From assembly GCA_003219215.1 (NCBI GenBank), contig QHPY01000168.1, positions 1 through 43,371 of the forward strand: a DNA stretch of 43,371 bases, given 5' to 3'. How positions within the stretch are numbered: position 1 is the stretch's first letter; every line of letters starts with the position of its first letter. The notes beneath the pieces were generated by a model. The model did not search any database and was not told the DNA's origin. It saw only the letters and a program-made list of their open reading frames with translations. Of the stretch, positions 492 to 30,334 are shown piece after piece. This DNA comes from Verrucomicrobiota bacterium (lineage in GTDB: Bacteria > Verrucomicrobiota > Verrucomicrobiia > Chthoniobacterales > UBA10450). Position numbers and translations under genes: made by a program.

Positions 492-2369
492 TTGCTTGTT
501 CTGGGATTCCGCGTGTGGCCCGCACTTTTTGTCGGCGCGTTTTTGGTAAACCTGACAACGCTGGGAAACATTTGGACGTCGCTCGGCATCGCCAGCGGGA
601 ACACGTTGGAAGCCCTTTGTGGCGCCTGGCTCGTAAACAGATTTGCTGGAGGCGCTCGAGTTTTCGATCGTCCGCAGGACGTTTTCAAGTTCGCGCTTGC
701 GGCGCTCATTGGTACGACAGTCAGTCCTACGTTTGGAGTTAGCAGTCTGGCCGCTGGCGGCTTCGCGCAATGGTCAAGCTACTGGCCCGTCTGGCTGACC
801 TGGTGGCTCGGCGATGCTTCCGGAGTTCTGGTTATAGCCCCGTTGCTCTTGCTTTGGAGCGTGCCCGCGACGCAGCGCAAGTGGAACCAGAAGCAAGTAT
901 TAGAAGTTTCCGTCCTCTTGCTGTTGCTCGTGGTGCTGGCGGAAACCGTGTTCGGTGGATGGCTTCCGATTTCGGCGCGGAATTATCCGATCTCGTTCAT
1001 TTGCGGACCGATCGTCATCTGGACCGCGTTTCGTTTCACGCCGCGCGAAACAGCCACTGGCATCTTTATTCTTTCGGCCATCGCAATTTGGGGAACGCTC
1101 AATGGATTCGGGCCGTTCATTTTGCAATCCGAGAACCAATCGCTCTTGATGCTGCAGTTATGGACGGCCGCGTTGACGATCACAGCAATGGCAATCGCAG
1201 CCGCAATTACGGAACGCAACCGCACCCAGGTTGCGCTCGAACAGCAAAAGGACGCGGTTGAAGCCGCGAACCGGACCAAAGACAATTTTCTGGCGATGCT
1301 GTCGCACGAGCTGCGCACACCGCTGACGCCCGTCGTGGCAGCGCTCGATACTCTTGAAGCGGATGGTTCGCGCTCGAGTGAATCAAAAAACTCGCTGGCA
1401 ATGATTCGGCGCAATGTCGAACTCGAAAGCCAATTGATAGACGATCTCCTCGATCTCACCCGCATCGCCAAAGACAAATTGCAATTACGATTCGGGCCGC
1501 TCGATTCTCACGAAGTGATTAACAATGTGGTGGAAATTTGCCGCCCGGAAGCGCAGGCGCGAAATTTGACGCTGCAGCTCAACCTGCGCGCTGGTGGGCA
1601 CCATGTCTTGGGCGACGCAGCCAAGTACCAGCAAATTGTTTGGAACCTGCTCAAGAACGCGATCAAGTTCACGGCTGAGAACGGCGAAATCACAATTTCA
1701 TCGTCTAACCCAGAACCGCAGCTCCTCGCCATCGCCGTGCACGACACCGGAATCGGAATCGAACCGGAAGTCATGAATCGCATTTTCGATCCATTCGAGC
1801 AGGGCGAGCGCGCATTTCAGCGGCGCTTTGGTGGACTCGGCCTCGGTTTGGCGATTTCCAAATCACTCGCCCAAGCGCACGGCGGCACACTGATCGCGCG
1901 CAGCGAAGGACACGACCGCGGTTCCACTTTCATTTTAACGATGAAAACCGTTCCGGCACCGCCGCGCATCGTGAAGCTTACATCGCCGGTGCCAGAGAGC
2001 CGGCCGTTGCGGATCTTGCTGGTCGACGATCATCAGGACACTTGCGTTGCGCTCGAGCGACTGCTCGTTCGGCGCGGCCATTTGGTCGCAGCTGCGCACA
2101 ATGTCCGCTCGGCGATGGAAACTGCGGCGCGTAATTCGTTCGACTTGCTCATCAGCGACATCGCCTTGCCCGATGGGACCGGCACCGAGTTGATGACTTA
2201 TCTGCACGCGATTTCGCGAATCCCGGGAATCGCCATCAGCGGATTTGGAATGAATGGCGACATCGAGAAGAGCATCGACGCCGGGTTTGCCGAGCACCTG
2301 GTCAAACCGGTGAAAATGGAAAATCTCGAAGCTGCGATCGACCGCGTGATGGCGACGGCGACTCTGTAG
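492..2369 (+). CDS. MASE1-domain hybrid histidine kinase, 5' end probably damaged
   Basis: Membrane sensor kinase expected to autophosphorylate on histidine and pass phosphate to its own receiver domain. The first 225 or so residues are a multi-span MASE1 sensor. A HisKA domain follows with the phospho-acceptor in SHELRTPL (His272), then a HATPase domain (about 335-470) with DTGIGIEP and GLGLGLAIS, and a C-terminal receiver domain with DD near the start and Asp556 in SDIALPDG as phosphorylation site. The open frame can only begin after a stop at 444-446. The in-frame codons 447-491, before the TTG at 492, still encode SASPVWPPAGIALAA, which is conserved MASE1 sequence. The natural start was therefore further upstream and has been lost by stops and a frameshift, or by a sequence error. 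No partner regulator is adjacent. Confidence 0.8.
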   Translation: MLVLGFRVWPALFVGAFLVNLTTLGNIWTSLGIASGNTLEALCGAWLVNRFAGGARVFDRPQDVFKFALAALIGTTVSPTFGVSSLAAGGFAQWSSYWPVWLTWWLGDASGVLVIAPLLLLWSVPATQRKWNQKQVLEVSVLLLLLVVLAETVFGGWLPISARNYPISFICGPIVIWTAFRFTPRETATGIFILSAIAIWGTLNGFGPFILQSENQSLLMLQLWTAALTITAMAIAAAITERNRTQVALEQQKDAVEAANRTKDNFLAMLSHELRTPLTPVVAALDTLEADGSRSSESKNSLAMIRRNVELESQLIDDLLDLTRIAKDKLQLRFGPLDSHEVINNVVEICRPEAQARNLTLQLNLRAGGHHVLGDAAKYQQIVWNLLKNAIKFTAENGEITISSSNPEPQLLAIAVHDTGIGIEPEVMNRIFDPFEQGERAFQRRFGGLGLGLAISKSLAQAHGGTLIARSEGHDRGSTFILTMKTVPAPPRIVKLTSPVPESRPLRILLVDDHQDTCVALERLLVRRGHLVAAAHNVRSAMETAARNSFDLLISDIALPDGTGTELMTYLHAISRIPGIAISGFGMNGDIEKSIDAGFAEHLVKPVKMENLEAAIDRVMATATL

Positions 2370-17475: not shown

Positions 17476-18300
17476 CTATCCATCGAGGCTTTCTGACAAA
17501 CGTGTTCTCTCGGTCTCGCGCGCGATGGGGAAAAGAGAGTGCCGCTTGATGAATTCGCGCGCGAGGGAGCGGTAAGCGCTGGCGCCGACTCCGCTCGGGT
17601 CGTACTCGAGAATCGATTTTCCGAAGCTCGGCGCTTCACTTAAGCGCACGGTCCGAGGAATGACCGTTCTATAAACGCGCTCGCCGAAATGCTGCCGCAC
17701 TTCGTTTACGACTTGTTCGCTCAAATTCGTCCGACTGTCGAACATTGTCATGACAATGCCGCCGATCTCGACCTGATCGTTCGCGCCTGAATCGCGCACT
17801 TGCTCGACCACGCGCACGATTTTGACCAAACCTTCGAGCGCAAAATACTCGCACTGGATCGGCGTCAGGATCTCGTCGGCCGCGGCCAGCGCGTTGGTCA
17901 TGAGAATGCCTAACGACGGCGGGCAATCCAAAAGGACGAGATTAAACGTTTCGTCCGAACGAAAGGTAGACAATGTCCTGGCCAGACGCGTGAGATGGTC
18001 CGGCATTCGAGCAATCTCAACTTCCGCGCCGGCGAGATCGAGATCGGCGGGAATGATAAATAGCTGATTGAGGCGAGTCGGCAATATTTTGTTCGCGATG
18101 GACGCACCGCCAAGAAGCGATTCATATATGCTCTCGCCTTCCACTTCGTGCATTCCGAGCGCGCTGGTCGCGTTCGCCTGAGGATCGAGATCAATTAAGA
18201 GAACGCGCAGTTTTTTTTCCGCCAAAGCGACGCCGAGATTCACCGCGGTCGTTGTCTTCCCGACTCCGCCTTTTTGATTTGCGATCGCGACAATTTTCAT
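17476..18300 (-). CDS. parA: ParA/Soj chromosome-partitioning ATPase
   Basis: A 274-residue ParA-type ATPase with deviant Walker A motif KGGVGKTT (10-17), Walker A' region LLIDLDPQANAT and Walker B LLDCPPSLG. No N-terminal helix-turn-helix is present, so it is the chromosomal Soj type. It normally works with ParB and parS to move origins. Here no parB is next to it and I see no copy of the parS consensus TGTTTCACGTGAAACA in the window. Its ATG overlaps the stop of the LanB-like gene (ATGA read on the minus strand), so the two are translationally coupled, an unusual pairing. Confidence 0.92.
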   Translation of the reverse strand: MKIVAIANQKGGVGKTTTAVNLGVALAEKKLRVLLIDLDPQANATSALGMHEVEGESIYESLLGGASIANKILPTRLNQLFIIPADLDLAGAEVEIARMPDHLTRLARTLSTFRSDETFNLVLLDCPPSLGILMTNALAAADEILTPIQCEYFALEGLVKIVRVVEQVRDSGANDQVEIGGIVMTMFDSRTNLSEQVVNEVRQHFGERVYRTVIPRTVRLSEAPSFGKSILEYDPSGVGASAYRSLAREFIKRHSLFPIARETERTRLSESLDG

Positions 18301-20357
18301 GAACGCGGGACAATTAATGTGCGCAGCTCAAAGCTGTGGCGACCATTCGATTCTTTCCAAAACAAATGTTCCGGGTCAGGCAACATTTCCGTTACTTCGA
18401 TCTCGCCCGCTTTAATGAGCCAGCGGTGGAAAATTTCCAGAAACAAATAGCTCTCAAGATCGACAAAGACTGGCTTGGTATCTTTGTCGCGACCTTCCGC
18501 CCCGCTCCGACGCAAGACTTGCTCGGTCGGACGAATGTAAATAAAGCGGGGTAAATTTCTTTCGGCGCGCAATTTTTCAACGGCGACGACCAAGTGATTT
18601 GATACGCCGGTGTAATTGCCAGGGATCAAATCGTGGGCTTTCACGGTCCAGCTGCGACGTTGCACAATCACCTTCCCGCAACGCAAACGAGGTGTCTGCG
18701 GAGCCATTCCAAATTGAAATGGATGAAAGCCGAGCGGAATCACCCACGCACGCGCAAACGATCCGAGATGTTCGTGATTGTCGATCCTGCGCACACAAAC
18801 GTCACCGGTTGCTTCATCGATATAAACTTCCGCATCCGCCGGTGAAGTCTTTTTCCATTTTGGGTGCCCACGTTGCGGCGCGACGAAGTTTGCAAGCTCC
18901 GGGATCGCATCGAACAAACGCACGGTGGTATGCGCGGTGAAATCGGCTGCGAAAAAACCGAAGTGAAAATTCGGCCGACTGAACGTCGTGCTCGTTAACG
19001 CGCGACTGAGCGTTTCTTTGTCCGGGCAACTCCAGAACATGCAATGATGAAGCATTGCGATTGGCGGATGAAGCTCGGCCAGTATCCATTGATAATCGCC
19101 GCGCTCGATCGCTTCAATTGAAGTCGCGGCCAATTGCAGATCGGCTGACGGATAAGTGTATTCGTCGAATTTCGGATAATCGAAATTGTCCCGCACGACA
19201 TGACAATCCCCGGCCGTAAGTTCGTATTCACTAAGATCAACACGTGGCTGCAAGCGTTTCCGAAAGGCAGCTTTCACTTCTTGAAACGCCATGACTGCGA
19301 GCGCGACCAGGCCTGGTCCGGTCAGCGGGAGTTTCGCCGCTTCGCATGCTTGCAAGAATTCGGGCAACGGCATGACTCCGCTTTTTGCCCCGGCCCTTTC
19401 CATGATCCCGCGCAAACCGGCGGCGACGCGAGAAGCAATGAACGCATAGCTGTCGCGCCAGAGGTCGATCCACGGTTCGGCCGGAGTGACGACTTCATCG
19501 ATCAAGCTTTCGTTAATTTCGAAATGACATTCGCGAAAACATTCTTCGCCGATGGGATTGCTCGCGGCGTAGAGAAAACGGTCGCCATGTTTTGGTGCAG
19601 CGCCGATTGATTGCAAAGACGTTTGCGCTTCGTCCAGAATCGATTGTCGATCTTGTGTGTCGGTCGTCGCGACAAATTTCTGCGGGAGAACGACTAATGC
19701 CTCCAAAATCGACAGCCATTTGTCGCGAGCCGGACTTGGAAGCCAATTTTTCACGTCCTCGAGCAAAATTTCCACAGCGTGCGGTTCAAGCGCGGGCACG
19801 GTTAGCTTTGGATTTGAGTTTTCCGGATCGGCGTTAATCGCCGCCGCGACGGCGTGAGCAGTCCATCGTTCCAGGAATGCTTCGCGTTTTGCGATACCCG
19901 GCTCCGGCTTCAATCCGACTCCGGAAACGTTTTTGCCAATTTTGCCCCAACCGGAAGGTCCGAACTCACTAAACGTGTCGTTTTTCGCCGCGATGCGTTG
20001 AAGATAAAGCACGAGGTGGCGCTCACGTTCGCGGCTGCGCGAGTTGCGTGCGGGAAGCGCAGCATCCGGATTGATTTCCAACAAAGACGAAATGCGGTCA
20101 CGCATTCCTTCCGCACCAAAGATCAAATAGCGCGGCAAAATCGTGCGGGCGGAACCGAGCAATGATCTTCGGGCGGCGTCGAGCTCGTCGTGAAGCGTTA
20201 TCGCCAAGCCCTTCTCATCGCCCGGGTCGATTTTCTCTTGCGTAACCAGCAGATCGCGAACCGTGTTGGCGGTGACAGGAGTGGCCAAACGTTCGACCGT
20301 GTCGAACGGCGCGCCAGCTAAACGAATCAAAAAAATTGGCGCGACGCGGTATGACAC
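18297..20357 (-). CDS. Orphan lantibiotic dehydratase (LanB)-like protein
   Basis: A 686-residue protein resembling the N-terminal glutamylation domain of class I lantibiotic dehydratases. It opens with RVAPIFLIRLAGAPFD, has the family signature RIAAKNDTFSEFGPSGWG (121-138) and ends with LPRFIYIRP and KPVFVDLESYLFLEIF. LanB proteins transfer glutamate from tRNA-Glu to Ser/Thr of a precursor peptide. The C-terminal elimination domain, a LanC, a precursor peptide and an exporter were not seen nearby. The start is GTG 20357 with no clear ribosome site; the gene follows a receiver-kinase by 86 bases and is coupled to parA. Its substrate is unknown; it may act on a distant peptide or have another tRNA-dependent role. 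Confidence 0.78.
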   Translation of the reverse strand: MSYRVAPIFLIRLAGAPFDTVERLATPVTANTVRDLLVTQEKIDPGDEKGLAITLHDELDAARRSLLGSARTILPRYLIFGAEGMRDRISSLLEINPDAALPARNSRSRERERHLVLYLQRIAAKNDTFSEFGPSGWGKIGKNVSGVGLKPEPGIAKREAFLERWTAHAVAAAINADPENSNPKLTVPALEPHAVEILLEDVKNWLPSPARDKWLSILEALVVLPQKFVATTDTQDRQSILDEAQTSLQSIGAAPKHGDRFLYAASNPIGEECFRECHFEINESLIDEVVTPAEPWIDLWRDSYAFIASRVAAGLRGIMERAGAKSGVMPLPEFLQACEAAKLPLTGPGLVALAVMAFQEVKAAFRKRLQPRVDLSEYELTAGDCHVVRDNFDYPKFDEYTYPSADLQLAATSIEAIERGDYQWILAELHPPIAMLHHCMFWSCPDKETLSRALTSTTFSRPNFHFGFFAADFTAHTTVRLFDAIPELANFVAPQRGHPKWKKTSPADAEVYIDEATGDVCVRRIDNHEHLGSFARAWVIPLGFHPFQFGMAPQTPRLRCGKVIVQRRSWTVKAHDLIPGNYTGVSNHLVVAVEKLRAERNLPRFIYIRPTEQVLRRSGAEGRDKDTKPVFVDLESYLFLEIFHRWLIKAGEIEVTEMLPDPEHLFWKESNGRHSFELRTLIVPRS

Positions 20358-20443: not shown

Positions 20444-21586
20444 TTAACTCGCCGAGAGCGGGAGACGAATCGTGAAAACTGTGCCCACGCCGTGGGTGCT
20501 GTCTACTTTGATTGAGCCGTTATGGTCTTCGACAACTTTTTTGGTGATATAGAGGCCCAACCCGGTGCCGCTCTTGGCCTGCTTGGTTGTGAAATAAGGA
20601 TCGAAGATTCTAGGGAGTTGCGTCGGTTGAATCCCAGCACCCGTGTCTTCGATGCGAAGATCGACATAGAAATCTTTTTGCGCGCAGACAACCGTGACTT
20701 TTCCTTTCTTGTCGGCGGAAGCTTGCACCGCATTGACGACCACGTTCTGAATAGCGCGGCTGATTTGTACAGCGTCGCCTAAAAGAGTGCAGGGGTCTTG
20801 GCAGATGGTGACGTTGAGCTCGACGCCGCTTTCGGTCGCCATTGGCGCAATTCCTTTCAGGACTTCGCAAAGAATACCCGAAACTGAAATTTGTTTGGGC
20901 GGCGAAGCTTCGACGTTGCCGTAACTCTGCCACATCGTAAGCAATTCACGACAGGTGCGCACATGTTGCTCGATGATTTTTAATTCTTTGACCGAGCTGG
21001 CGCTCTCATCCTCCTCAGATTTTTCGAGACGCCGCGCCAGCAGCTGGACATATCCCCAAACGATAGTGAGAGGATTGCCGAGATCGTGAACAAATTCCGC
21101 GGACGCTTGGCCGAGCGCGGCCAGCCGCTCTTTCTGCGCCAGTTGCTGAAGCAAACGATTGTTTAATTCTTTAATCTCGGCGGCCGCATTTTCGCTGGTC
21201 CGATGCGCGCGCGTACGTTCGACATTGCGATCAATCACCTGCTGCATTTCATGAGCATCAAACGGCTTGCTGATGTAATCGTTGGCGCCGAGTCGCAGGG
21301 CCTCCTTGGCCGTGTCGAGTGCGCCGAAACCGGTAAGCATGATGACTGAGAGATTCGGATCGATCTCGCGGATTTGACGTAGACCCTCGATCCCGCTCAT
21401 TCCCGGCATCCGAATGTCCATGACAATCGTGTCCGGTTGTTTCTCTTTCAGGAGTTTGAGGCCGGCCTCGACGCAATCGGCCGTGTGCACCTGATAATTT
21501 GGTTTCAGGAGCATGCGCAAGCTTTCGCGCGGTCCCATTTCATCATCAATCACAAGGATTTGCGGGAGTTCGGTCGCGGCGGTCAT
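20444..21586 (-). CDS. Receiver-histidine kinase (REC-HisKA-HATPase), soluble
   Basis: A cytoplasmic kinase with an N-terminal receiver domain and no membrane segment. In the receiver, Asp14/Asp15 are the acidic pair and Asp57 in MDIRMPGMSG is the phosphorylation site, with LTGF and SKPFD following. A coiled linker leads to HisKA with His167 in FVHDLGNPL, then a HATPase with DTGAGIQP and GTGLGLYITKK. It is probably activated by a distant kinase through the receiver. The ORF extends to 21841, but the extra 85 residues match nothing, and ATG 21586 (MTAATELPQILVIDDE) begins at the receiver's edge. It may be in one transcript with the LanB-like gene and parA. Confidence 0.85.
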   Translation of the reverse strand: MTAATELPQILVIDDEMGPRESLRMLLKPNYQVHTADCVEAGLKLLKEKQPDTIVMDIRMPGMSGIEGLRQIREIDPNLSVIMLTGFGALDTAKEALRLGANDYISKPFDAHEMQQVIDRNVERTRAHRTSENAAAEIKELNNRLLQQLAQKERLAALGQASAEFVHDLGNPLTIVWGYVQLLARRLEKSEEDESASSVKELKIIEQHVRTCRELLTMWQSYGNVEASPPKQISVSGILCEVLKGIAPMATESGVELNVTICQDPCTLLGDAVQISRAIQNVVVNAVQASADKKGKVTVVCAQKDFYVDLRIEDTGAGIQPTQLPRIFDPYFTTKQAKSGTGLGLYITKKVVEDHNGSIKVDSTHGVGTVFTIRLPLSAS

Positions 21587-21928
21587 AAGGCGTCGGCGGC
21601 AATTGAAGCTAGGGGCATGCCGCGGACGGGGCAGAGAAGCAAAAAAGTCAGGCGCAAATTCATCTAGCTCAGCCGGGCGAACGGTGAAGCAGAAATCGTT
21701 GGCATGCAAGGTGCAACTTGTGAATAAGTTCCCGGCTTTAGTGAATAAGTGATCTGTTTGTGGCGCAAAAAATATAATGACTGGAGTTAATGTAGCGTTT
21801 AGAATGCCGGGTGATTCGTTCGTGCCCGAAAAGATCGACAATCAGTTAACCGCCAGCCCCCCAGACTTTGCGGTGGCGAAGGCACGAACTTTCTTCACGA
21901 GGCGTTTGCGCGCACTGGAGCACCAAAA
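21587..21928. other. Divergent intergenic region of 342 bases
   Basis: The region separates the minus-strand receiver-kinase from the plus-strand ketosynthase operon, so it should hold promoters for both. A perfect TATAAT stands at 21773-21778 on the plus strand, 150 bases before the ketosynthase, with only a poor -35 candidate. An exact AAGATCGACA lies at 21831-21840. No gene is seen. Confidence 0.4.
21831..21840 (+). repeat. Uptake-like motif AAGATCGACA, intergenic copy
   Basis: Exact 10-mer in the divergent intergenic region, 89 bases before the ketosynthase ATG. Nothing translated constrains it here, so it argues for a DNA-level role for the motif. Confidence 0.7.
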
Positions 21929-23173
21929 ATGCTGAAGCGAAACCGCGTCGTCATCACCGGGATGGGAATTCTGGCGCCGAATGGGATTGGCAACGACGAA
22001 TTCTGGGAATCGCTCGTCACCGGCCGGAGCGGGATCGGCCCAATTACGCTATTTGATGCGAGCGATCTAAAGAGCCGGATTGCCGGTGAAGTAAAAAATT
22101 TTGACCCGCACGATTACATCGAGCCGGAGTTGAAACCGAAACGGATGGCGCGTCACACCCAGTTCGCCTACGCCGCGACTATGTTGGCGCTCGAAGATGC
22201 GGGTCTCGAAATTAGCGAGGCTGATTTGCCCAGTCCGACACCTATTATTGTGGGAGTAAGCACCAGCGCGATGGACATTATCGAACGATCAATCAGTGAT
22301 TTTGATCGCCGAGGAGGGAATGGCATGTCTCCAACGGCAGTGGGCGCTTTAACGCCTCAAGCGGCCGCGAATGCCATCGCTGATAGAATTGGTGCACGCG
22401 CCCATGCCGCAACAGTTTCTTCTGCCTGCCCATCCGGGTTGGATGCGGTCGCGCTGGCCGCGGACATGGTTCGATCTGGCGCGGCGGAATTGGCGATCGC
22501 GGGCGGAGCTGACGCGCCGATTACAAAACATACATTCGCCGCCTTTATTGCGACTGGGTTGAGTTCTTGTCGCAACAGAGAACCTGAGAAAGCAAGCCGG
22601 CCATTCGACATCGAGCGCGACTCAGGGGTGATCTCGGAAGGCGCGGGAATGTTTGTCTTGGAGACCTTAGAAAGAGCTGAAGCTCGAGGCGCAAAGATCT
22701 ACTTGGAGATCAATGGATACGCTAGGCAAAGGGACCGCGGCCCAGACGATCCAGCTTCAGGATTGGCTGATTCGATGAGACTGGCGTTGGCAAATGCCGG
22801 CCGATCAGAAAATGACATCGATTATATTTCGGCGTATGGACCGGGCCATCCCGTTCTCGACGCAGCTGAAGTGCGTTATATTAAGGAAGTTTTTGGTGAG
22901 CGCGCTTATTCAATTCCGATCAGTTCAATCAAAGGTGTCACCGGCAATCCACTGGCGGCGGGAGGCCCGTTGCAACTGGCCGCCTGCGCCTTAAGCTTCC
23001 GCGACCAGATTATCGCGCCGACAACGAATTGCGAGCTGCCGGACCCAGAATGCGATTTAGATTTTGTGCCTTTGCGAGCAAGAAAAGCAAAGTTGGATTG
23101 CATTTTGATGAATGTCCGAGGCTTGGGAGGCAGCGCCAGTTCACTGGTGGTCTCGCGACCTAATCACAGATGA
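21929..23173 (+). CDS. FabF-like ketosynthase lacking both catalytic histidines
   Basis: A 414-residue protein with the whole beta-ketoacyl-ACP synthase II fold. The nucleophile is kept as Cys167 in SSACPSG, and Lys335 in SSIKG is present. The two histidines needed for decarboxylation are gone: the usual AHGTxT motif reads AYGPGH (Tyr303) and the usual TGHxLGAAG reads TGNPLAAGG (Asn340). In E. coli FabF the equivalents are His303 and His340. An elongating ketosynthase is therefore unlikely; acyl transfer, acyl binding or regulation fits better. No ACP, ketoreductase or other fatty-acid genes adjoin it. Its stop overlaps the start of a membrane histidine kinase (ATGA). Confidence 0.85.
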   Translation: MLKRNRVVITGMGILAPNGIGNDEFWESLVTGRSGIGPITLFDASDLKSRIAGEVKNFDPHDYIEPELKPKRMARHTQFAYAATMLALEDAGLEISEADLPSPTPIIVGVSTSAMDIIERSISDFDRRGGNGMSPTAVGALTPQAAANAIADRIGARAHAATVSSACPSGLDAVALAADMVRSGAAELAIAGGADAPITKHTFAAFIATGLSSCRNREPEKASRPFDIERDSGVISEGAGMFVLETLERAEARGAKIYLEINGYARQRDRGPDDPASGLADSMRLALANAGRSENDIDYISAYGPGHPVLDAAEVRYIKEVFGERAYSIPISSIKGVTGNPLAAGGPLQLAACALSFRDQIIAPTTNCELPDPECDLDFVPLRARKAKLDCILMNVRGLGGSASSLVVSRPNHR

Positions 23174-25701
23174 TCGGCTCCACCCTCGCAATTTTGATCG
23201 CGTTGCTAACTCAGTTAGCACTGGGATTAACTGTCTTTCTAGCCAACCGGCATCGAAAGTCTAATCAGGCATTTTTGCTTTTGTCTTTAGCTGCAGCAGC
23301 ATGGCTGGCCAGTTTGTATTATATACTCACCGCGACAAGTCTTCCGGCAGCACAGATTGGAATCCGCGAAGCCTCTTCGGCCGGGATTCTGATTATTGCG
23401 ATGTTAAATCTTTTACGCTTGTCCATTGGCCGCGCCAACAGTGATTGGCGGAGTATTCTTGGCCAGTCGCGCGTTTGGCTAATCGTGACCGCTGCAATTA
23501 TTGTCTTGTGCCAGACAAAATTTTTCCTTCAGGGGGTGCGAATATTGCGGGTTGGGAGCCAACCGACGCCAGTCCCAATATACGGCCCAGGGGTGTACAT
23601 TTACGTTAGTTATTTTGTTGGCGCGATTGCTTTACTCGGCGTTACTACATGGCGCGATCTGAGACGAACTACAGGCGGCGAGCGAACAGAGATCGCATTC
23701 ATATTGATCGGAGGCATTGCCGCAGTGGTAGTCTCGTTGCCACTTTCGCTTCTTTTGGGTGGGTTTTTTAGGCCGTCGCAGCTTTCTTGGTTTGCTCCAT
23801 TCCGAGTCGTCTTCTTCAGCATCGTTGTCGCCTACGGAATTGCGACACGCAAAATGATGGAAGTGGGCGTCTTGCTGCGGCGACTTATTTCCTATGTGTT
23901 GCTCGCCACATATTTGCTCGCGCTTTACGCGCTGGTGTGGTGGCTAGTGGCAACTGCGCTGCGTTCTTCCGTTCCAAATGCGCATACAGTCGCACATGTA
24001 GCCGCCGCGGTTGTGATCGCCTTTGCCATGGCTCCTGCCCGCGGTATCTCCCAGCGACTGGCGGAGCGGCTTTTCATCGGTTCACATCAACTCGATTTTC
24101 GCGCAACTGTTAGTAAAGCGGCCAAAATCCTGGCGTCAGTAACGACACTGCGCGATTTGCTCGATCGTTTCGCCAACACCGTCGCCGAGGCGGTTGGCAC
24201 CGAACGGGTTTTCATCCTTCTTCCAGACAAGCAGGGATTTTCGCAGCGTTATCCAATGGTCGAACCCGGGGCCCGTTATTGTTTGGAGCTGAGTCGCGAC
24301 CAGGCGACGATCACCGAATTGGAATCAAATCGTGAGCCGATAGTTATGGATGAGCTGCATCGTGCGAGGCCAACGCCGCAACTTCAGCGAGTGATGCGGC
24401 AATTGGATTCGCTTCAAATTGCGCTGGCGATGGGAATTTTCGCGCGGGATCATCTGGCCGGCGTATTGTTGCTTGGGGCCCGAAAATCCGGCCGCATTTA
24501 CGGCGCGACCGAACAAGGCGCCCTTCAGGTTTTGTGCGGGCAACTCGCAGTCGCGATTGAAAACGCAGAGCTTTTCACGGAAGTCCAAAACGCCAAGATC
24601 TACAACGAAACTTTGCTCGAAAATCTGACCAGCGGGGTTATTGCGGCGGGAACGGACGAACGCGTGACCGTTTTCAATAACGAGGCTGGCCAAATCACCG
24701 GATTAAACGCGCAAGAGATAGTCGACTTGGCTGCGCTTCCGCTCGAGCTGGCAGAACCGCTAATCACGACTTTGCGCACGGGCGAGAGCCAGGAAAACCG
24801 CGAGATAGCTCTGCGGGTCGGAACAGGGGACGTGATCATCCGCGCCAGTACGTCGATTTTTCACGGACAAGATCGACAAGTACTGGGGGCGCTAATGGTG
24901 TTAACGAACATCACCGCCATTAAACGCCTCGAACTGCAGATTCGCCGCAGCGACCGACTCGCCAGTCTGGGAACGCTTTCGGCAGGAATGGCGCACGAGA
25001 TCAAAAATCCGCTGGTCTCGCTTAAAACCTTTGCTCAATTGCTGCCAGAGCGCTACCAGGATTCCGATTTTCGCGATACGTTTTCGAATTTGATCGGGCA
25101 CGAGATCGACCGAATTGACTCGCTCGTTAATCAGCTGCTTCGTTTTGCGCGACCAGCAAAACCGATTCTCAAACCGCTCCATGCGCATGAGATTCTGGAA
25201 AAGGCGCTCACACTGGTTGGCCACCGACTCTATCAAAAAGACATTAAATTGAATCGCTCATGGCGCGCAGACACTGACACTATCCACGGCGATGCCGACC
25301 AGCTGGAGCAGGTTTTTCTCAACTTCTTTTTAAACGCAATGGATGCGATGAAAACGCATGGTGAATTGTCGGTGAAGACCGAGATCCGCTCGGACGAACA
25401 ATGGGTCAGCGCCCTGACTTACATGAATGGCGAAAGTAGCGGAAATAGCGAAGCGCGCGAAGCTTTCCGGATCACGATTCGCGACAGCGGAGAAGGAATT
25501 CGCGCGGAAGATATTCCGCACGTCTTCGATCCATTCTTCACAACCAAAGATTACGGAACCGGATTAGGCTTATCGGTTGTGCACGGAATCATCCAGGAGC
25601 ATGGAGGACAGATCGAAGTCGAGAGCGAACTGGAAAAGGGCACCGCGTTTCACATTTTGCTCCCGTTAGTGCGGTTTGACAGCAAGGTGGCTGCCGCATG
25701 A
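23170..25701 (+). CDS. Membrane histidine kinase with GAF and PAS domains
   Basis: An 843-residue sensor kinase. About nine hydrophobic segments (1-290) form an unusually large membrane part. A GAF domain (about 315-470) and a PAS domain (about 475-590) follow. HisKA has the phospho-acceptor His609 in MAHEIKNPL; the HATPase domain carries FLNAMDAM, DSGEGIRAED, FDPFFTTKDYGTGLGLS. The layout resembles the PrsK/NtrB-type kinases but no DNA-binding regulator is adjacent. It is coupled to the ketosynthase upstream and the kinase downstream by ATGA overlaps. An exact uptake-like motif lies at 24869-24878. Confidence 0.88.
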   Translation: MIGSTLAILIALLTQLALGLTVFLANRHRKSNQAFLLLSLAAAAWLASLYYILTATSLPAAQIGIREASSAGILIIAMLNLLRLSIGRANSDWRSILGQSRVWLIVTAAIIVLCQTKFFLQGVRILRVGSQPTPVPIYGPGVYIYVSYFVGAIALLGVTTWRDLRRTTGGERTEIAFILIGGIAAVVVSLPLSLLLGGFFRPSQLSWFAPFRVVFFSIVVAYGIATRKMMEVGVLLRRLISYVLLATYLLALYALVWWLVATALRSSVPNAHTVAHVAAAVVIAFAMAPARGISQRLAERLFIGSHQLDFRATVSKAAKILASVTTLRDLLDRFANTVAEAVGTERVFILLPDKQGFSQRYPMVEPGARYCLELSRDQATITELESNREPIVMDELHRARPTPQLQRVMRQLDSLQIALAMGIFARDHLAGVLLLGARKSGRIYGATEQGALQVLCGQLAVAIENAELFTEVQNAKIYNETLLENLTSGVIAAGTDERVTVFNNEAGQITGLNAQEIVDLAALPLELAEPLITTLRTGESQENREIALRVGTGDVIIRASTSIFHGQDRQVLGALMVLTNITAIKRLELQIRRSDRLASLGTLSAGMAHEIKNPLVSLKTFAQLLPERYQDSDFRDTFSNLIGHEIDRIDSLVNQLLRFARPAKPILKPLHAHEILEKALTLVGHRLYQKDIKLNRSWRADTDTIHGDADQLEQVFLNFFLNAMDAMKTHGELSVKTEIRSDEQWVSALTYMNGESSGNSEAREAFRITIRDSGEGIRAEDIPHVFDPFFTTKDYGTGLGLSVVHGIIQEHGGQIEVESELEKGTAFHILLPLVRFDSKVAAA

Positions 25702-27701
25702 CGCCCGCGCCGATTTGCATTTTATATACTCAGGATGCCGAGCTTGTTCGCCGGACGAGAGCATTTTTGCGCAGCATGTCGCAACTGCGGCATGTGAACG
25801 ACCCCGATCGTCTCGAATCTGTGCTGCAACAAACGGGCCAGTCCGTCTTAATGATGGACTTACGCTCGAAAGAGTGCCGCGAACTAATCGATCAAATCCA
25901 AAATGAGCAGCCTGAAGTTTTGATCATTGCATTCGGTGTTGGGCAATCCGAAACGTTACGCGAAGCCGAGCAGTTTGGAATTTACGCCGCGGAAGAGATC
26001 GGCCTGGAACGACGCCGTTTTCAAGCCCTGCTCGGGCGCGCTTTCGATTATGTGAAACTTTCACAGGAAAACCGCGATTTGCGCGAGACATCGGCAATGA
26101 CGCCGGAAATCTCCCGCAAGGGCGAAGCAACACAACAGCCGATCGACGTAACACGGACGTTTCCATTGCTTCGATTTCCGCGAGTCCTTCGTCGTTTGGA
26201 CAATATCGAGGTGCTTGTGACAACCGTTGTCGAAGCGTTGGCCGATGCGGCCGGCGTAAGTCGCGTGGGACTTTTTTCGCGAACCCGCAAAGGAGATCCC
26301 TATCAGCTGCGCGCTGGGCTGCATTGCTTGCCCGAAACCGAAGAATTGCAGTTTGGAGAGCGCGACGCGCTGGTGCGCTGGTTTGAATCACATGCCCATC
26401 TCATTTCACGCGCCAATCTTCTTCGAACTCAAGATCACAGGCAGCGCACAATCATGCGGCGCGCGCTCGACATGTTCGGGGCCGAAGCGATCGTGCCGCT
26501 TTATGCGCGCGGCTCCATCATCGGCTGGGTTTTCTTTGGACCACGTGTCACCGGGCGGCTTTTCGATGACCGGGATCTGGAAGGCCTTACGGCGCTGGCC
26601 GAACACGTTTCGACCATTCTCGAAAATGCTCTTCTTTACGAGGAAGCGACTGTTCAAAAAACGCTGGCCGAAACACTCCTGAAATCGATTCCACCTGGCA
26701 TTGTCGCCATCGATGAGGACGCCATTATTCGGTGGTTTAATCCGCCGGCGGAAAAAACTCTCGGTCTGTCGGGCACCGCCGCTTTGAATAAACCGGTTGA
26801 AAGTGTCGGCACCAGACTCGCTGGCTTGTTGCGCGAAACGCTGGAATCGAAAACGCCGATGCCGCCGCAACATTGGATCGACAATAACACGCAGCGATCG
26901 CTTTCTGTGGAGACGCGACAGCTTGCCGGCAACGGCTCGCCCCTTGGTGCCGTCGCTGTGATTCAGGATCTGACTGCGCAGGAAACTTTGCGCGAAAAAC
27001 AAGCCTTGCTCGATCGAGCGACGTTTTGGACCGACTTGGCCGCGAGCATGTCTCACGAAATCCGCAATCCGCTGGTGGCGATCAAGACCTTTGCGCAACT
27101 CCTGCCGGAACGCTTCGACGACGCCGATTTTCGCAAGGAATTCAACGAGATTGTGGTAAGCGAGATCGATCGTCTGGATAAAATTATTACCCAGATCAAC
27201 AATTTCGCGCATCCACCCGAGCTTGTGTTTAAACCAATCGACGTTCGGTCACCGGTCAAAAAGGGCGTGGAAATTGCCAGGTCTCGCTATGGCATCAACG
27301 GGAAAGTGGAATTGGAAACGTCATTGCCCAGCAATCTGCCGCGCGTGTTGGGCGACGAGGCGGCTCTGGCTGAAGCATTCGCCCACCTTGTCGCCAACGC
27401 CGCCGAAGCCAGCGCGGATCGCAACAAGCCGCGCATCACACTTTCGGCGAAACCAGTCCGGGAAGGACAACATCCCGCCGCGGTGGTTGTGACCGTGCGC
27501 GATAATGGCTCCGGCATCTCTCCGGAAATAAAAGAGAAAATCTTTTCACCGTTTTGCACGACCAAACCGCGAGGAATGGGTCTCGGTCTGCCGATCGTGA
27601 AACGAACGGTATTTGATCATCACGGCCGGGTAGAAGTCGATTCGACCTCAAAAGGAACGCAGGTCAGCGTGCTCTTGCCCGCAACGAGCGGCCAGGGTTA
27701 A
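25698..27701 (+). CDS. Soluble histidine kinase with receiver-like, GAF and PAS domains
   Basis: A 667-residue kinase without membrane segments. The first 130 residues are a receiver-like fold with an Asp in LMMDLRSKE, but the usual acidic pair at the N-terminus is missing ([10 protein letters not shown]), so it may not be phosphorylated. A GAF domain (about 165-315) and a PAS domain (about 325-430) lead to HisKA with His453 in MSHEIRNPL and a HATPase domain ([27 protein letters not shown]). HisKA is closely similar to that of the preceding kinase (both have [10 protein letters not shown]), so the pair probably arose by duplication. It is last in the ketosynthase-kinase-kinase operon. Confidence 0.86.
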
Positions 27702-29872: not shown

Positions 29873-30334
29873 ATGGAAATTATAAAGATGAAGCCGGCCA
29901 AACGCGAATACTTCCAGTTCCTCATCATCGATGATGACCCTGGTATCGCTAAATTTTTGGTCACTTATTTGCGCCAGCAGGGCCACACTTGCTGCGCTTT
30001 GACCGATGGCTTCCAGACCGCTGCCTGGCTGTCCGAGAACGACTGCGAAGTAGCAATTGTCGATCTTAAGATGCCGAAAGTAGACGGGATCTCGCTCATC
30101 GCCTTTATCCGCGAGCTGAATTCGACGCTTCCGATCGTTGTTTTCACCGGGGTTGGTTACGACGAAGAGCAAATGCAGGCGGCCCTCCACGCAGGCGCCA
30201 ACGGTTATGTGAGCAAGAATCTTCCCATCGAACAACTCTACTGCGTGCTCGCGCGAGTCCTTGCGACCTGTCAGCAGCGCAAACGCAGCGTCCCTTTCAA
30301 CGGTCAGCAACCAGCGCTCGCTGGAGCTGCTTGA
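29873..30334 (+). CDS. Single-domain response regulator
   Basis: A stand-alone receiver of 153 residues. The acidic residues are in FLIIDDDPG, the phosphorylation Asp in AIVDLKMPKVDG, the Thr in VFTGVG and the Lys in GYVSKNLP. No output domain is present, so it should act by binding a partner or as a phosphate relay for one of the orphan kinases in the window. Start ATG 29873 (MEIIKMKP) is preferred; ATG 29888 is an alternative. The longer open frame to 29687 runs inside lpxD and is rejected. An exact uptake-like motif lies at 30058-30067, across the phosphorylation-site codons. Confidence 0.82.
   Translation: MEIIKMKPAKREYFQFLIIDDDPGIAKFLVTYLRQQGHTCCALTDGFQTAAWLSENDCEVAIVDLKMPKVDGISLIAFIRELNSTLPIVVFTGVGYDEEQMQAALHAGANGYVSKNLPIEQLYCVLARVLATCQQRKRSVPFNGQQPALAGAA

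Follow-up and report, generated by a model that had tools for sequence, protein, structure and literature searches.

What could a ketosynthase that has lost both of its catalytic histidines be doing in an operon with two histidine kinases? This question is raised by a contig of the Chthoniobacterales (QHPY01000168.1 of the Verrucomicrobiota assembly GCA_003219215.1), which was analysed over its whole stretch of 43,371 nucleotides, referred to here as the window. The operon on its + strand encodes a FabF-type ketosynthase homologue that is predicted to be non-condensing (KS, 21929..23173, 414 aa, Pfam ketoacyl-synt N and C), a membrane histidine kinase (HK1, 23170..25701) and a soluble histidine kinase (HK2, 25698..27701). 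Neighbouring genes overlap by the four bases ATGA, KS with HK1 and HK1 with HK2, and the coordinates and couplings given for all three in an earlier, sequence-only reading are right.

Alignment with FabF places KS Cys167 (codon 22427-22429), Tyr303 (22835-22837), Lys335 (22931-22933) and Asn340 (22946-22948), all on the + strand, at the positions of FabF Cys163, His303, Lys335 and His340, respectively. This bears out the earlier claim that the cysteine and the lysine are kept and that tyrosine and asparagine have taken the place of both catalytic histidines. In FabF/FabB enzymes, the cysteine takes the acyl chain, the lysine aids acyl transfer and both histidines aid malonyl decarboxylation (PMC7138838). 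The window KS has the ketosynthase fold and the two ketoacyl-synt domains that characterize FabF/KAS II, as its AlphaFold2 model (pLDDT 93) adopts the FabF fold with a TM-score of 0.95 against B. subtilis FabF, and carries Cys-Tyr-Asn in place of the Cys-His-His triad of these enzymes. In the gate, Asp269 and Asn395 correspond to FabF Asp265 and Asn396 and are thus retained, which is consistent with acyl handling, and the gatekeeper Phe400 is exchanged for leucine. A kept Cys/Lys pair, a lost histidine pair and a conserved gate make acyl loading without condensation plausible for this protein. Mutants of the histidines and the lysine of KAS I (FEBS J 2006) reportedly provide further background to the roles of these residues. 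With 362.6 bits, KS falls well under the FabF equivalog cut-off of 493.75 (NCBIfam TIGR03150). Its weak family matches include AmcF, which is annotated as an acyltransferase subunit, and its sequence and structure matches are of the FabF/FabB type, with no sign of membership in the KAS III family.

A decaying pseudogene is ruled out by the intact reading frame and by a dN/dS of 0.044 (closest pair, with synonymous sites near saturation), which points to strong purifying selection. Neither is KS the housekeeping FabF, since other ketosynthases with the full Cys-His-Lys-His set are encoded elsewhere in the window's genome and the KSs of this type of locus, referred to below as module KSs, group in a single clade (support 100/99) that is separate from FabF. 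Automated pipelines would be inclined to label them beta-ketoacyl-ACP synthase II, a label that is probably wrong.

HK1 is indeed a multi-span GAF-PAS kinase, as had been proposed, with Pfam matches to HisKA_7TM (7TM region at residues 9-231), GAF, PAS, HisKA (His609) and HATPase, while Pfam detects GAF, PAS, HisKA (His453) and HATPase domains in HK2, which are preceded by a degenerate receiver (approximately residues 1-115). Both thus possess the HisKA histidine and the HATPase N-box asparagine expected of a sensor histidine kinase. Since these residues are invariant among the aligned relatives covering both positions (for HK1, His609 and Asn722 occur in 41 of 41 aligned sequences that span them), HK1 and HK2 both look active. 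The N-terminus of HK2 gives no Pfam Response_reg match and lacks the complete residue set of a response-regulator receiver: Asp13 and the phospho-acceptor-like Asp54 are kept, and neither the first acid nor the lysine of beta-5 is present. This receiver-like region occurs phylum-wide, with Asp13 and Asp54 in most members and again without the first acidic residue and the lysine. Its earlier description as 'lacking the acidic pair' therefore holds for the first acidic residue, but not for Asp13 (nor does it cover the retained Asp54). Similarly, the notion of two duplicated kinases is correct as to two kinases, but given only 28% identity over 530 aa any duplication would have to be ancient, and a recent tandem duplication is ruled out by this divergence and by the presence of both kinases throughout the phylum. 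In NCBIfam, the kinases, like an NtrC-type regulator found in relatives (see below), match best to the AtoS-AtoC, ZraS-ZraR and PrsK-PrsR types, in every case under the equivalog cut-offs.

A further conserved partner of the module is a divergent gene 342 bp upstream of the KS operon, which encodes a receiver-histidine kinase (REC-HisKA-HATPase, 380 aa, 20444..21586, - strand). Its receiver is full in the window (Asp14, Asp15, Asp57) and complete in 33 of 33 aligned sequences, five of which have arginine in place of the histidine; the protein may serve as an acceptor of phosphate or as a sink for it. A receiver-only protein is encoded 2.2 kb downstream of the operon (29888..30334, + strand) and is syntenic within the window's family. 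It clusters with a REC-HTH_8 regulator that follows HK2 in Kiritimatiellae, itself being devoid of the HTH part, and is probably a component of the module in the window's family. No DNA-binding regulator adjoins the window operon, and the REC-AAA-Fis protein of a sigma-54-dependent two-component system is missing from the locus; eight sigma-54 activator-domain matches, some of them weak, are located elsewhere in the genome. The earlier statement that no regulator with an output domain is near is accurate for the window, but in relatives one (NtrC-type or REC-Fis) is encoded directly after HK2. Genes for an ACP or for acyl activation were not noticed next to the window operon, no match to FadL was found in the window's genome, and FadL is gone from the locus in the window's family. 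With neither FadL in the genome nor a DNA-binding regulator in the locus, the window is linked to fatty acids by descent only. Next to the receiver-kinase on its far side, 17476-20357 (- strand) encodes a ParA-type ATPase as well as a protein of 686 aa that partially matches Lant_dehydr_N (residues 545-615); both are conserved there throughout the window's family, and no homologues of them were found beside the receiver-kinase in the other family of the order or in other classes. A MASE1-HisKA-HATPase-receiver hybrid kinase at 492-2369 (+ strand) is positionally unrelated to the module.

Promoters and operators are reported here as consensus matches. A sigma-70-like promoter, ATGACT-N17-TAGAAT (21777..21805, + strand), faces KS and recurs in most family loci. 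Upstream of it lies the direct repeat GTGAATAA-N13-GTGAATAA (21719..21748, + strand), the first copy of which corresponds to TTATTCACA on the - strand, a DnaA-box-like 9-mer that sits at the equivalent place in almost every family locus, where a near copy usually accompanies it at a distance of 18-21 bp. The exact paired GTGAATAA motif is present once in the window's genome and at most once per genome, mostly at the KS locus, which speaks against a regulon defined by this repeat. A replication origin is unsupported as well, as the boxes number only one or two and the skew does not switch clearly. The sigma-54-like site TGGCATGCAAGGTGCA (21700-21715), which also faces KS, is kept only in the genus and in some other genera of the family.

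Is the arrangement more than a peculiarity of one genome? Most genera of the window's family possess a KS orthologue (55-86% identity), and almost every family locus whose contig permits testing shows the order KS-HK1-HK2 together with the divergent receiver-kinase (in G020, HK2 and the receiver-kinase lie on a different contig). Among the family genomes searched with both profiles, all 38 that carry KS also carry HK1 and HK2, as opposed to one of 29 without KS, in which the match is a contig-edge fragment (G014). The absences fall mostly in genus g5, where KS, HK1, HK2 and the receiver-kinase are all missing, and hence mainly reflect the loss or absence of the whole module in one lineage instead of many independent events. 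Cys-Tyr-Lys-Asn is found in 39 family sequences, and a single orthologue (L057) combines His303 with Asn340. The three genes are arranged in the same way in a second family within the window's order (L059, L164, L165), whose KSs contain Cys-Trp-Lys-Ile or Cys-Trp-Lys-Asn.

A profile built from the family KSs and four distant members was then applied to 388 genomes sampled across Verrucomicrobiota and gave high scores in 42 more genomes. Most of the genomes are MAGs, each rank being represented by a sample, and some neighbours are concealed by the ends of contigs. Forty loci were examined, 38 of which are module members and two ordinary FabF (L251, L252). The module thereby spans about 30 genera in other classes, including Kiritimatiellae. 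The order KS-HK1-HK2, with HK1 adjoining KS, is found in 37 of the 38 loci; the remaining contig starts beside KS. The gene order hence recurs across family, order and other classes, in most cases along with a divergent receiver-kinase gene, and such phylum-wide conservation together with the low dN/dS of KS argues that the arrangement is not due to chance. Beyond the phylum, a pattern-limited scan returned, among the matches listed, ordinary FabF except for members from Kiritimatiellae and Chthoniobacterales.

The active sites vary between these loci. Cys-His-Lys-Asn prevails in the 38 other-class loci (28), followed by Cys-His-Lys-Cys (4), Cys-Asn-Arg-His (4, all in one Kiritimatiellae clade) and Cys-His-Lys-Ser (2). 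The cysteine is invariant in every member, even where positions 303 and 340 change, and none of the approximately 83 clade members, close relatives of the window KS included, has histidine at both sites. Tyr303 with Asn340 is the usual state in the window's family, and the histidine-less state is derived: as the wider clade is mostly Cys-His-Asn, the tyrosine represents a later loss. The simplest reading of these residues is an early loss of His340, with the Cys-Asn-Arg-His clade as the only one to have recovered or retained it, followed by independent exchanges of His303 for Tyr, Trp and Asn. Since most of the wider clade retains His303 with Asn340, as in KAS III enzymes, an enzymatic role is possible for the clade, which may as a whole be catalytic.

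Further context comes from the relatives outside the order. In 29 of 38 loci, a gene for a FadL/OMPP1/TodX-family outer-membrane protein, divergent from KS, adjoins the receiver-kinase. A gene for a REC-AAA-Fis regulator of the NtrC/AtoC type follows HK2 in 14 of 38 loci, and a shorter REC-Fis protein is encoded there in several further ones. The 400 bp upstream of KS were scanned for -24/-12 elements, allowing at most one mismatch to TGGYRYRNNNNTTGCW and requiring GG and GC. Sites resembling sigma-54 promoters are oriented towards FadL in 16 of 35 intergenic regions, whereas 0.6 would be expected from random windows of the same loci, and towards KS in none of the 35. They read TGGCAYR-N5-TGCW and are situated about 20-90 bp upstream of the FadL start where that start is well placed. 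Regulator and promoter type thus agree, and the module in relatives has the components of a sigma-54-dependent two-component system. FadL beside the module and the sigma-54-like promoters before it lend independent support to a link with acyl or other hydrophobic compounds. In one other-class family, a fused FeeM-like N-acyltransferase/class V aminotransferase is encoded near the module (L231, L239, L245, L247, L250), most copies being adjoined by a PlsY-like glycerol-3-phosphate acyltransferase gene. A FAD_binding_4 oxidase of about 535 aa lies beside the receiver-kinase in 14 other-class loci, for example L222 (1197-2813, - strand). A literature search for a ketosynthase-kinase-FadL module found nothing relevant and no description of it.

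Taken together, a KS without condensing residues that is bound in an operon to two kinases throughout the phylum, often near FadL, is probably a fatty-acyl sensor or carrier. The earlier idea of an acyl-binding sensor that feeds two kinases is thus supported in part, neither an order limited to this genome nor close relatives with both histidines having turned up. The translational coupling to the kinases and the regulated FadL of the relatives favor a ketosynthase that has turned into an acyl-thioester sensor/carrier and serves as the acyl-handling input of a two-kinase phosphorelay, a reading to which we give about an even chance. KS would take an acyl group on Cys167 or bind an acyl thioester without turnover. 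Being unable to decarboxylate malonyl-ACP, it would report or carry the acyl group instead of extending it, and could pass the acyl state to the co-translated kinases, the membrane-bound HK1 and the soluble HK2. The kinases would then signal to receivers. In relatives, these may be the regulators of NtrC/AtoC type or REC-Fis type whose genes directly follow HK2, and the output would include sigma-54-dependent transcription of the FadL-family importer; in the window's family, the receivers probably are the receiver-only protein and the divergent receiver-kinase. Binding of acyl groups by KS and its control over the kinases, the direction of the signal and the regulon are what we infer from gene context and residues, as is a physical contact between KS and kinases, of which operon membership is no proof. 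The bolder version, in which the dead ketosynthase is the dedicated acyl-state receptor of a phylum-conserved two-kinase phosphorelay that ancestrally controlled FadL-type import, is tentative and in our estimate somewhat doubtful. If true, it would reveal a class of bacterial lipid sensing with the active-site cysteine of a dead ketosynthase as the sensory site.

The chief rival, which we consider rather unlikely, turns the relation around: KS would make an acyl-derived hydrophobic signal, either by transferring an acyl group or by a condensation that involves no decarboxylation, and HK1 would sense it in the manner of the synthase-sensor pairs of quorum sensing, with FadL importing the signal. 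The Cys-His-Asn triad of the wider KS clade, present in 28 of 38 other-class loci and absent from the window because of Tyr303, is that of KAS III-like signal synthases and was reported for the photopyrone synthase PpyS (C129, H281, N310; PMC4578411). In rhizobia, FadL homologues import long-chain AHL signals (PMC5977203). The 7TM sensor region of HK1 and the FeeM-like acyltransferase gene near five related loci would fit as well. Yet KS is of the FabF and not the KAS III type, and His303 is lost in the window's family (Tyr), in the second family (Trp) and in one Kiritimatiellae clade (Asn), all of which keep the whole module. An essential condensing step is hard to square with these lineages, the more so as KS is under purifying selection in the window's family. 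Hence, a signal synthase accounts for the Cys-His-Asn members and FadL, but not for the lineages without His303.

Conceivably, KS could also be an acyltransferase that acylates a lipid or small molecule, with kinases that merely regulate its activity or gene and without being a sensor component itself. Retention of cysteine and lysine upon loss of the decarboxylation residues, reminiscent of KS0 domains, and the weak match to AmcF would be in line with this, but genes for a substrate, a carrier or another biosynthetic step are not conserved alongside the module, whose near-universal neighbours are signalling genes only, plus FadL in relatives; we regard such a role as unlikely. A KS dimer that only bridges or localises the kinases, with Cys167 as a conserved relic, would explain why both histidines are lost and the gatekeeper is leucine. 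It is very improbable in view of a cysteine that is invariant in all members despite variable positions 303 and 340, and of the retained gating Asp and Asn.

Fatty acyl sensing is poorly known in bacteria outside model proteobacteria. Verrucomicrobiota, most of which are uncultured, abound in soil. The combination of a disabled KS with two kinases throughout this phylum, joined in relatives by FadL and sigma-54 elements, offers a concrete, testable lipid-sensing or lipid-signalling system. In its kinases, the NtrC-type regulator of relatives and the sigma-54 output, it resembles AtoS-AtoC, ZraS-ZraR and PrsK-PrsR; unlike these, it unites two kinases and a ketosynthase in one operon, with a third, divergent receiver-kinase gene. 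As in the FadL-assisted sensing of Sinorhizobium, a FadL-family importer would be tied to an acyl-signal sensing system, but there FadL aids quorum sensing of long-chain homoserine lactones, whereas here it is encoded beside kinases and a ketosynthase. With FabF/KAS II, the module KS shares the fold (TM 0.95), the nucleophilic cysteine, Lys335 and the gating Asp and Asn. It differs in that both catalytic histidines are lost in the window and never occur together in the clade, in scoring under the FabF family cut-offs and in residing in a kinase operon rather than among clustered genes of fatty-acid synthesis. The non-elongating KS0 domains found in trans-AT polyketide synthases have also kept the cysteine and lost the catalytic histidine, and are thought to hold or pass chains. 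The module KS likewise keeps its cysteine without the catalytic histidines, but is a free-standing FabF-type protein and not an assembly-line domain. Finally, like the chain-length factor (KS-beta), it is a catalytically degenerate KS paralogue, yet the chain-length factor loses the very cysteine that is the invariant residue of the module KS. With each catalytic histidine naturally replaced and the nucleophile fixed, these proteins form an existing set of variants in which acyl transfer and condensation could be told apart.
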